Shown here: one piece after another, positions 3,744-7,500 of the stretch
Numbering within the stretch: position 1 is the first letter of the stretch
Layout of the letters: the number at the start of each line of letters is the position of its first letter
From: Aotearoamyces nothofagi
Lineage: Eukaryota; Ascomycota; Leotiomycetes; Leotiales; Tympanidaceae
Reading direction: 5' to 3'
Assembly: GCA_015345905.1 (NCBI GenBank)
Contig: JADDTR010000007.1
Location: forward strand, 682,001 to 746,000
DNA length: 64,000 nt
The notes under the pieces: model-generated
What the model was told of the DNA's origin: nothing
Database searches by the model: none
What the model saw: only the letters and a program-made list of their open reading frames with translations
Translations under genes and position numbers: made by a program

Positions 3744-3849
3744 TGACCCGTCAATCACGACGACCCACGGGAGGTTTTTAAGATATGATAATATCCATGA
3801 AGCCGAGTCAACAAGTCCAAAAGAAAGAAAGAAAAAAAAAAAGAGGCAC

Positions 3850-3854
3850 AAAAA
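3850..3854 (-). terminator. RNA polymerase III terminator of tRNA-Ser
   Basis: A T5 run on the sense strand, five bases after the discriminator base. A second, longer T11 run follows at 3842-3832 as a possible back-up. Confidence 0.8.
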
Positions 3855-3903
3855 GAATACGACAACAAAGAGATTCGAACTCTTGCTCCCGAAGGAAATG
3901 CCT

Positions 3904-3920
3904 GACTTTCTCTCGGAGAA
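3904..3920 (-). other. Canonical tRNA intron (position 37/38)
   Basis: Seventeen nucleotides, TTCTCCGAGAGAAAGTC, directly 3' of A37. This is the standard eukaryotic position cut by the tRNA splicing endonuclease. TTCTC and GAGAA inside it can pair. Confidence 0.85.
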
Positions 3921-3929
3921 TAGCAGGGC

Positions 3930-3987
3930 CTGAGAAGATTAGTGTCTGAAATCATGCAGAGCAAGACAAGTGGCAGTGCCGGCTTAC
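3930..3987 (-). other. Spliceosomal-type intron inside the tRNA anticodon stem
   Basis: A 58-nt insertion between tRNA nucleotides 28 and 29. It begins GTAAGC, has CTAAT at 3942-3938 (branch A at 3939, nine nucleotides before the 3' end) and ends TTCTCAG. These signals match those of mRNA introns in the same window: GTAAGC donors in UTP21 and the AIM6-like gene, and CTAAT in the UTP21 3' intron. The size also fits local introns. Removing it restores the 5' half of the anticodon stem exactly. Spliceosomal removal is inferred; it has not been shown. Confidence 0.75.
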
Positions 3988-4015
3988 ATCGCGTTAACCA
4001 CTCCGCCATGTTGCC

Positions 4016-4555
4016 GAGCTTAGTTGTCGGCGTTTGGCCTATGTGGACTTATGTGCCCGACCATTTTTTCCGGCTCCTGATAGAAGTCCTCTGGAACAGG
4101 GCGAAGGAGAGGGCATAAATGCTGTGGAATCGCTATGTAGCTTTGTTGATATTTGGCGGCTAATTGGTGGATGCTTCTGCCATTTGGAGAGGGACATTGT
4201 TGAAGGGAGCTATTTGCGCTCGCCTCTCGACGCCCGCTGTATCGGTCCAGTTGCCTATTTCGTATTAAGTAATTTCCGTTGATGAGAAGCCCGTCTAAAA
4301 CGTGCAAAAGTCAAATGTTAAAGTATTTATTTCTTAATAGTATTTCCCGTTGAAGTTATGTATATTTTGCTGCATATTCTACAGTGACAGAGATGCTGAG
4401 AGGAGGACGGCAGCGCCGGCGCTATTGCTATTGCTAGTGGTAATGGCAATAATGCCCTTTAACTTCTGTTACTACGGCTACTCAATAACTGGCCACACTA
4501 ATAATGTCCCACTATGTCAATATACTCTTCATAATACTAAATCCATCTCCTTCTA
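4016..4555. other. Intergenic region, no gene seen
   Basis: About 540 bases between the tRNA 5' side and the 3' end of UTP21. Open frames on both strands (for example 4020-4307 minus) show no recognisable domain. Confidence 0.5.
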
Positions 4556-7500
4556 TCATGTCCTTGGGCCCCTCAAGAAAGCAATAACACCTCCACAATG
4601 TCCTACTAAACGCCCCAACCTCTCTCCTTCCTTCTGCTGCTCCGGCCTCAATTCACTTAGCGCGGGCGTAAGTTCCTTATCGTGTGCAATGGCATCAGAA
4701 TGAAGTCTAAGGAACAAATGCATATATGTTTGCACGAGGTCAAAGTCTCGCTTCTCTGCTAACCGGCTCGTGAGAGCGTGAACAAATGATACAAGTTCGT
4801 TGGATCCTTCAGAGGGGTTGAGGGACCGGATCTCAAGATCCGTGGCAGATGGGGATAGAGTCTTGAGATGATCGAAGAAAGAGTTATCTGGGAGTCATTA
4901 GTACAGCTAAGGAAAGGTAAGAGGTGATATATACAATTCCCGCTTTCACGACCGTTTCGCAAAGTAGTGGTGAATTTTCCTTCAGAGACTTGATGACCCA
5001 TCTTCATGATTCTGGATCGCTCGGCAATACTATCTTCGGATTCTTCAATAGTAGTAGTACGGATTGACTTTCCATTCTCTAATGATGGAAGGAAGAAGGG
5101 TGCTTTCTCTGGAGCCTTTGGCGGCTCTGTCGGCTTATTACGTTGCTGTATGACGCTGTTAATATTCTTCATGAATAAGGAGGGGAGATAGAAATGTACC
5201 TTTATGAGATCAAGATGAAGCAATGTCTGCAATCTACTCTTTGGAACTAAACTCAAAGTCACCATATCCTGACTTAGCTGATCCAAAGATTGGACAGGAA
5301 TAGCATCGTCTTCTTCTTCGTCTTCTGCAAATGCGCCTTCAACAAGTCCTTGTCCGCCTTCGCCGGATACTGTGGGTCCAGCCATCTCGGCGATCTCATT
5401 CTCAGAGATATGTCGAGTAGGCACATGTGTAAACAGGGTTTTGTTGTTCCATACGTCTACCCCAACCTCACCTTCACAAGCCGTTGCCAAGAACTCTCCA
5501 GTCCCGGAAAAGGCTAGAGCTGTACAGGGCCGGGCCATTCGTATTGCGTCAATCAGATGCCCGGTAGGCAGATCCCAGACTCTAATAACTTTATCCTTTG
5601 ACGCAGCAATGATCCAACGACCATCATTCGAGAAGGAAAAGTCATTAAAGCCACCCTGGCACCCCCACAACTCTCTTATAGTCTTCTTTGTTACAATATC
5701 AACAACTCTTATGGACATGTCATCGCAAGTAAGAGCAATCAGGTCGCTGGGTGCATGATAACGCAGCCCAGTAATGCCTGTCATCGGGTACCAGTCGAGC
5801 TCATCAACGAGGTTTCCGGTTCCGAATTCCCAGAACTTGATCTTACCATCCAAAGAACAACTGATAATAGTCTTGTTCAGAGAGTCCACGACCAAGCCCG
5901 TGACCTCCTTTGTATGCCTGCCCAGTCCAATCCGAAATTTCTTGCTGCCGACAAGATCAACCACAACACTGCTCTCGTTTAGTTGTTGTATCTTCAACTT
6001 TCGAGCTTGCGCAGGTGTCAGTCTTGCTGGAAATCGTTGCCGATGGAGGCCAGATTGCATATTGAACATGTCAATCCCACCAGCTTCAGACCCCACCACC
6101 GCAAACGTGCCACAAGGACTGATAGTCACGCTGCTAACATTTGCACCATCACCTGTCTCAAAGGCCCATCGACCTGCCTTTTTCCTGCCCCAAAACCAAG
6201 TCCGGGCATACTTGTCATCACGATGACCAGTAACGACGCTCTCCCATCCAGTAATTCCACTCTGTGTTGCATCGGCTGACTTATTTTGACCGTGATTGCC
6301 TTTCTGCCATATGGAACCAGTCCCGGGGAATGCGCCCATGCCGCCATCTCTGCTGAGAGATGACGCAAGACAAGTTATTTCCGGAGCCTTGAGATCCTCG
6401 AGTGTGGCAGTTGGCCCGTTAGCCAAGGCAGCACTAGCAAGAATACCATGCTTCTTGGCCTGTTTTCTGATGTTTCCTTGGCTGAGCTCTGTACTTTGCC
6501 CATCTCGTCGTAAACTCCATCCCCATAAACTTCTATCTTTTCCAGCACTCAGTAACCATTTACCTCCAGCATCTGCACCATCTGAATCCGATGGCAAAAA
6601 CTGGAGCCGTGTAACAGGTGCAGCATGTCCGCTTCGTGAATGCAAAATCCGGGGCACGGACGAATATGGAGTCTCATCAAAGATCCATGACTTGAGCGCG
6701 TTGTCAAGACCGCTGGTGACGATAACTCGTTGACTGGCGAGGAATTCGACCTTGTTGATTCCTCCTCCAACGAGTGCTCCGATAGCTGATGGAGGGTTAT
6801 GAGCCCCTCTAAGGACGCCCATAACCCTACCACCATTATTGAGATCCCAAAATGTCACATCGCCAGTATCTGGGCCTGCCGTGGCCATTACACCGTCCTG
6901 TCGGCCATCTTCGCCAGCCCCCATCCCATCTGTGCGGAAAGATATAGTCGTTATGGGAGTGTTTGAACGCAGCTGTATTCTAGTTTTGTCGGTACGAACA
7001 TCATGGATAATGAGAGGACCTTTGGAGTATGCAATAGCCAACAAAGCCAACGCCGGAGTGGGCTGCATCACGGTGACAGCACCACAATCTGCCAAAGGGG
7101 GCAGAATCGTATAAATAATTTTACCAGTGCTGACATTCCAAATATCGACACTGCCATCCTTCCGCCCCGCAAACACTTTATTTAAAAATGTCGGCATGTT
7201 GCAGATACCACTGAGCTCGTTGGCGCCCTTCGTAGAAGCTGTAGCATGTAAAGTAGTATAATGCTCCAAGCTCGTCGACTTCCAGATCTCAATTCTTGTT
7301 GAGCAACATCCAACAATCCAAGTACCAAAGATAATCAACTGCTTGATGGGCTGGTTAGAGTCTTCCGGCACAGAAAGCTCCCCAACCTTTTTCCCTCTTT
7401 TGAAAACCCACAGCCCCGGCTGAGATTCCTTGGTTGTTCCGCACCATGCTGCAAAGACTCGATCCTTCCAGGCCAAAGTAGCAGTTACATTCTCCGGTGT

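Follow-up and report, generated by a model that had tools for sequence, protein, structure and literature searches.

The tRNA-Ser(GCT) gene and its surroundings

We analyzed a 64-kb window of the Aotearoamyces nothofagi assembly (25.5 Mb in 55 contigs, designated here by C numbers), in which positions 3860..4015 of the minus strand carry a 156-nucleotide (nt) tRNA-Ser(GCT) gene that, according to its sequence and to ARAGORN, comprises nt 1 to 73 of the tRNA and two introns. The 5' exon (3988..4015) corresponds to tRNA nt 1 to 28 and contains the A box. Between nt 28 and 29 lies a 58-nt mRNA-type intron (3930..3987), which begins with GTAAGC, ends with CAG (3' end, CTAATCTTCTCAG), and has at 3938..3942 a branch-site-like CTAAT whose putative branch A (3939) is located 9 nt from the 3' splice site. 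An initial sequence-only reading had proposed this interruption after nt 28 together with its splice signals, and its coordinates (3987-3930) proved exact; its account of the gene was incomplete in that it did not mention an ordinary 17-nt intron at 37/38 (3904..3920; ARAGORN i(38,17)), of the type removed by the tRNA splicing endonuclease (TSEN).

Excision of the 58 nt brings AT and GCC together and produces the stem ATGCC/GGCAT with the anticodon GCT, as had been predicted. The spliced form shows a cloverleaf, a long variable arm, and the GCT anticodon, and all 17 pairs of the acceptor, anticodon, and T stems are standard (one of them G-U; the D and variable stems stand outside this count). 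When ARAGORN was run with and without positions 3930-3987, a comparison suggested by the sequence-only reading, it returned Ser(gct) with a 17-nt intron for the spliced form and made no call on the unspliced form. In the intact window, neither ARAGORN nor the Rfam tRNA model gives a tRNA, and tRNA matches at an E value of ≤1 are absent from positions 3750-4150; weak Rfam matches (E ≤ 1) near the gene were taken as chance.

The same strand contains several features expected of a gene transcribed by RNA polymerase III (Pol III). The A-box-like TGGCGGAGTGG (3998..4008) and the B-box-like GTTCGAATC (3872..3880) presumably serve as A and B boxes, a T5 run just beyond the gene (3850..3854) resembles a Pol III terminator, and an upstream ATAGG (4038..4042) fits the element ATA[AG][GC] that is common to many tRNA genes of this genome. 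The neighboring protein genes encode a Vip1/Asp1-like protein and Utp21. Their best named matches are from Leotiomycetes; those of Vip1 are a Claussenomyces metagenome-assembled genome (73%) and Hyphodiscus (72%), both genera of this class, and a JGI protein without a name matches Vip1 at 76%. Homology to Utp21 ends at 4559 on the same strand, and the tRNA gene is situated some 540 nt past that end.

The pattern GGCNGAGTGGTTAANG locates a further copy of the gene, at C15:719740-719840, which lacks the 58 nt and has a 37/38 intron of its own. Without introns, both copies measure 81 nt, with 11 differences that all fall on paired bases in the acceptor and T stems. Of the pairs affected, five are altered on both sides with pairing kept, and one has gone from C-G to T-G; the 17 counted pairs are intact in either copy. 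Since the differences lie in pairs and five pairs have changed on both sides, both copies look as though they had been selected as tRNAs, which is not proof of selection at work after the arrival of the intron. The sequence-only reading had regarded many intact, expressed GCT copies as evidence against it; a single copy without the 58 nt, that on C15, was found.

Eleven tRNA genes with GT-AG inserts

To find similar genes, we collected B boxes with a T-run behind them from the whole genome and fetched 40 stretches, which were inspected visually, scanned for pairing, and run through ARAGORN. Of these, 29 contained a tRNA, and 11 (loci L043, L049, L050, L054, L072, and L075 to L080) had neither a tRNA nor an ARAGORN call; a later listing of the same kind added no followed-up loci. 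Because this search selected for intact B boxes and T-runs, these features are not independent evidence for the genes described below. Splice signals were not required, and they were used when the matches were read. Together with matches to RF00005 (at least 29, from the 63 of 791 candidates that were scored) and loci found by patterns, the fetched stretches provided 48 tRNA genes, namely, 11 with an insert away from 37/38 and 37 other ARAGORN calls, from which one miscall on the Ala gene had been dropped and in which the doubtful loci L051 and L060 are included.

We assigned the insert positions from the fold. In addition to the window gene, the set consists of Trp(CCA) at C18:516201-516326 (28/29, 54 nt), Ala(AGC) at C13:638293-638439 (24/25, 53 nt), Gln(TTG) at C4:484738-484919 (8/9, 56 nt), Leu(AAG) at C5:279222-279391 (9/10, 50 nt), Cys(GCA) at C14:53494-53619 (10/11, 54 nt), Ser(AGA) at C2:1424150-1424305 (51/52, 59 nt), Arg(CCT) at C22:451412-451539 (53/54, 56 nt), Asn(GTT) at C34:148893-149028 (51/52, 52 nt), a second Ser(AGA) at C11:500169-500319 (53/54, 55 nt), and Gly(CCC) at C13:772456-772590 (19/20, 56 nt). 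All 11 inserts (50 to 59 nt) start with GTNNG, end with AG, and contain YTAAY with its A 9 to 12 nt from the end. ARAGORN returns the expected isotype for every gene after splicing and for none before it, and in seven of the 11 it flags a 37/38 intron as well. In both genes interrupted at 53/54, the intron's final G doubles as G53 in the DNA, which leaves the B box whole, and in Cys(GCA) the intron-final TAG repeats T8 A9 G10, which preserves the A box. Insert-free paralogues were found for Ser(GCT) on C15, for Leu(AAG) on C2, and for Asn at C34:160191. With ten further tRNA genes carrying like introns at varied positions, the proposal made for the window gene, namely, that it is processed by the spliceosome, is now much better supported.

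Searches with anticodon-arm and T-arm patterns gave three matches for Trp and 13 for Cys, of which 12 were fetched. Two of the 15 fetched candidates had all five T-stem pairs and an ARAGORN call, and both are intron bearing. The interrupted Trp(CCA) and Cys(GCA) genes are thus the only convincing genes found for these isotypes by patterns that would miss any gene with a 37/38 intron, and single copy status is not proven. The census is incomplete: Phe, His, Asp, initiator Met, and other isotypes were not recovered, and genes for the four named here may be interrupted to a greater extent.

At L051 (positions 83-241 of C9:146030-146630, minus strand), the acceptor, D, and T arms are well paired and some 90 nt between them are unexplained; removal of a GT-AG stretch leaves a poor cloverleaf that ARAGORN calls Arg(cct), placing an unusual 3-nt intron in it, and the locus was excluded from the set of 11. 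L060 (positions 62-205 of C23:266560-267200) is tRNA-like over 144 nt, with six of seven acceptor pairs, an ARAGORN call of Pyl, and no clear isotype, and is possibly interrupted or dead.

Intron class, borders, and transcription signals

For comparison with mRNA introns, we mapped five introns in the window by homology to relatives of Vip1 and Utp21. These measure 53 nt (GTATGT..CTGAT), 59 nt (GTTAGT..CTAAC), 98 nt (GTATGT..CTGAC), 49 nt (GTAAGC..CTGAC), and 47 nt (GTATAT..CTAAT; here the next-best borders score nearly equally, 160 versus 165), and in all five the branch A is located 9 to 14 nt from a terminal TAG or CAG. Intron-like joins found de novo in window genes were noisy and were excluded from the counts. 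The 11 tRNA inserts share with these introns two features of the U2 type, namely, GT..AG borders with a 5' splice site typical of the genome and a branch motif at a distance typical of the genome. Other classes fit poorly. (i) The 58-nt insert is located at 28/29 and was rejected as a canonical eukaryotic tRNA intron, which occurs at 37/38; the 17-nt insert does qualify as one. (ii) Introns of the bulge-helix-bulge (BHB) type have a central helix of 4 bp between two 3-nt bulges. Pairing of intron nt 2 to 5 with nt 2 to 5 of the second exon gave four pairs in none of the 11 genes, the maximum being three. (iii) The ribozyme cores of group I and group II introns are far longer than 60 nt, and these classes were rejected on the basis of the insert length of 50 to 59 nt and of the absence of a match in the window at the Rfam gathering score. 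Mobile introns of the introner-like kind would be expected as near-identical copies across the genome. The inserts are not clearly alike among themselves (best z score of 2.6 among 55 pairs), and a search of the genome DNA with the 58-nt intron returned only itself, in a search that is insensitive, as the C15 query missed the window gene.

Chance was assessed by defining an intron-like stretch as one of 45 to 65 nt with GTNNG, AG, and a branch motif at 8 to 14 nt. Both strands of the window hold 135 such stretches, and a single removal yields a junction-spanning tRNA just once, at the Ser(GCT) gene. Among 359 intron-like stretches in 99 loci (203,545 bases, overlaps included), removal restores a tRNA in 16 cases, which correspond to the 11 genes, some of them found at two loci or with two sets of borders, and to the poor call at L051. 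When the window insert was shuffled, one of 500 trials gave a motif-bearing removal that restored the tRNA; for the 11 inserts together there were 17 in 5,500. The 37/38 introns flagged by ARAGORN (29, including one miscall on the unspliced Ala gene) provide a further reference: with borders allowed to slide by 3, none combines GT..AG with a branch motif, and one has GT..AG alone.

As to transcription, T-runs of at least four that start within 32 nt of the gene are present in all 11 cases, partly by design of the search. The upstream ATA[AG][GC] element occurs at -36 to -13 in eight of the 11 intron-bearing genes and in 28 of the 37 other tRNA calls, compared with 7% of 4,000 random window positions. 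Boxes, T-runs, and upstream element together suggest transcription by Pol III. In many tRNA genes of this genome, the element reads ATAAGC near -26 and often has a TATA-like stretch further up.

Proposed processing, alternatives, and precedents

Taken together, these data lead us to assign a probability of about 0.87 to the reading that the window holds a working nuclear tRNA-Ser(GCT) gene and that U2-type spliceosomal introns have repeatedly entered tRNA genes of this genome, whose transcripts would be made by Pol III and then spliced by the spliceosome. Pol III would use the internal A and B boxes to transcribe the Ser(GCT) gene; the spliceosome would recognize GTAAGC, CTAAT, and CAG, release the 58 nt as a lariat, and join nt 28 to nt 29, which would complete the anticodon stem. 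Only then would the precursor fold, and TSEN and tRNA ligase could excise the 17-nt intron at 37/38. The other intron-bearing genes would follow the same order, with removal of the GT-AG intron by the spliceosome preceding that of a 37/38 intron, where present, by TSEN and ligase. It also appears likely that tRNA production in this fungus depends on the spliceosome for 11 of the 48 tRNA genes found, or roughly one in four, among them the only convincing Trp and Cys genes, most of the transcripts then passing through TSEN before the tRNA could be charged.

A number of observations weigh against this reading. (i) CTGAY is the branch motif in three of the five mapped mRNA introns and in none of the 11 tRNA inserts. 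(ii) ARAGORN is lenient, since many other removals also restore a call (for example, 65 of 3,007 in the window gene and 450 of 3,007 in Ser(AGA) on C2). (iii) In six of the 11 genes, more than one GT..AG removal restores a tRNA. (iv) The upstream element is missing from three of the 11 genes. (v) As the C15 Ser(GCT) gene lacks the 58 nt, the window copy need not be essential. (vi) ARAGORN made another Trp(cca) call, at L031, with a 522-nt intron, which counts against a sole Trp gene; no GTTC-type T-arm was seen in it, and it was judged spurious. (vii) Both U6 small nuclear RNA (snRNA) genes (C3:1443403-1443509 and C1:1441107-1441217), which were examined as an internal positive control, are contiguous over the whole family model and have no intron; Pol III RNAs in general therefore need not carry such introns.

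With respect to points ii and iii, the leniency of ARAGORN means that its calls show the presence of a tRNA and not the location of the borders, for which we relied on pairing, paralogues, and the shuffle control. If GTNNG and a branch motif are required, a single candidate pair of borders is left in eight of the 11 genes. The borders at 24/25, 28/29, and 51 to 54 follow from stem pairing, those of Ser(GCT), Leu(AAG), and Asn from paralogues, and those of Gln (8/9), Cys (10/11), and Gly (19/20) largely from splice signals and tRNA consensus bases.

The insert-free Ser(GCT) gene, along with those for Leu(AAG) and Asn, also lends itself to the explanation that the window holds a pseudogene, complete or in the making, that was struck by an intron, that the C15 copy is the functional one, and that the other ten are similar pseudogenes. 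Short insertions in the D or T arms of eukaryotic tRNA genes are mostly confined to a single gene out of many synonymous ones, and such genes have been taken as pseudogenes, according to the available part of one study (PMC4090602). This alternative, which the sequence-only reading had itself raised, is possible for the window copy alone and explains the set of 11 poorly: the 11 differences from the C15 copy all lie within pairs and keep the pairing, the splice signals are intact in every insert, and among the Trp and Cys genes found, the sole convincing ones are interrupted in this way. For the set as a whole, we consider it improbable.

A comparably small chance, if anything slightly smaller, is given to the possibility that the introns are spliceosomal but are spliced in RNA polymerase II read-through transcripts from which the tRNA is matured. 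The position of the window gene downstream of Utp21 on the same strand would permit this, whereas the internal boxes, the T-runs (11 of 11), and the upstream element (8 of 11) point to Pol III. Cleavage of the inserts by TSEN at a noncanonical site has models in archaea, Cyanidioschyzon, and nucleomorphs, where tRNA introns away from 37/38 are known (PMC4090602, available part). The BHB central helix, however, reaches four pairs in none of our 11 genes, and the GT..YTAAY..AG pattern would be left without explanation, which makes this mechanism highly improbable here.

Processing of the tRNA by the spliceosome, the reading that we favor, has partial precedents. An mRNA-type intron has reportedly been described in the nuclear 18S ribosomal DNA (rDNA) of deuteromycetes, as the title of a reference has it, the host being noncoding and not a tRNA; fungal U6 introns and ascomycete rDNA introns of the spliceosomal type have reportedly been surveyed as well. 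Canonical tRNA introns, located at 37/38 and processed by TSEN plus Trl1, resemble the 17-nt insert and differ from the 58-nt insert at 28/29 with its GT-AG and branch signals. The U6 snRNA of fission yeast is likewise the product of a fungal Pol III gene with an mRNA-type intron (PMC8917221, in the portion available); in our case, by contrast, the hosts are tRNAs, many genes are involved, several also have a TSEN-type intron, and U6 itself is uninterrupted. The introns of fungal U3 small nucleolar RNA, as covered by the accessible text of PMC5832005, also reside in noncoding RNA genes of fungi but not in tRNA genes. In archaea, Cyanidioschyzon, and nucleomorphs, positions other than 37/38 and several introns per gene are known as well, the nucleomorph introns of Guillardia being 3 to 24 nt long and those of archaea being of the BHB type, whereas ours measure 50 to 59 nt and have spliceosomal signals and no BHB helix (PMC4090602, available part). 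The same paper describes noncanonical tRNA introns of eukaryotes in nucleomorphs and Cyanidioschyzon, and its text contains no word beginning with "spliceosom". A 2026 review, in the part available, classes tRNA splicing as independent of the spliceosome (PMC13149111), and tRNAscan-SE 2.0, as presented in the accessible section of its description, searches for off-site introns with BHB models, for candidates in archaeal mode (PMC8450103).

Among the matches listed in the open-licence literature on tRNA or noncoding RNA and on U6 introns, none reports a tRNA gene with a spliceosomal intron, an absence that is weak evidence, and the available parts of PMC11782384 and PMC4494063 contain no such case. 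Patterns combining exon and 5' splice site gave no match for Trp in a genome-contig collection and none for Ser in viral contigs, where the bare Ser exon pattern gave none either; these collections were not built from fungi, so that the negatives carry little information.

If our reading is correct, the divide between tRNAs and the spliceosome is broken, and the spliceosome acts on short, structured Pol III transcripts. Protein synthesis would then depend on the pre-mRNA splicing machinery at one more step, Pol III genes throughout the genome would have been subject to intron gain, and introns of this kind could escape standard tRNA annotation in other genomes. As the hosts are structurally constrained and the insertion point is readable, such genes would serve as a test system for the study of how introns are gained.

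The tRNA genes of this genome are rich in introns beyond the set of 11, since only about five of the 37 other calls (two Arg(ACG), Thr(AGT), Asn, and Glu) are short enough to have none. At L066 (positions 512-1320, C22), three adjoining Ile(AAT) genes share the same body and differ in their middle inserts, a pattern indicating that in this trio the introns change faster than the tRNA body.
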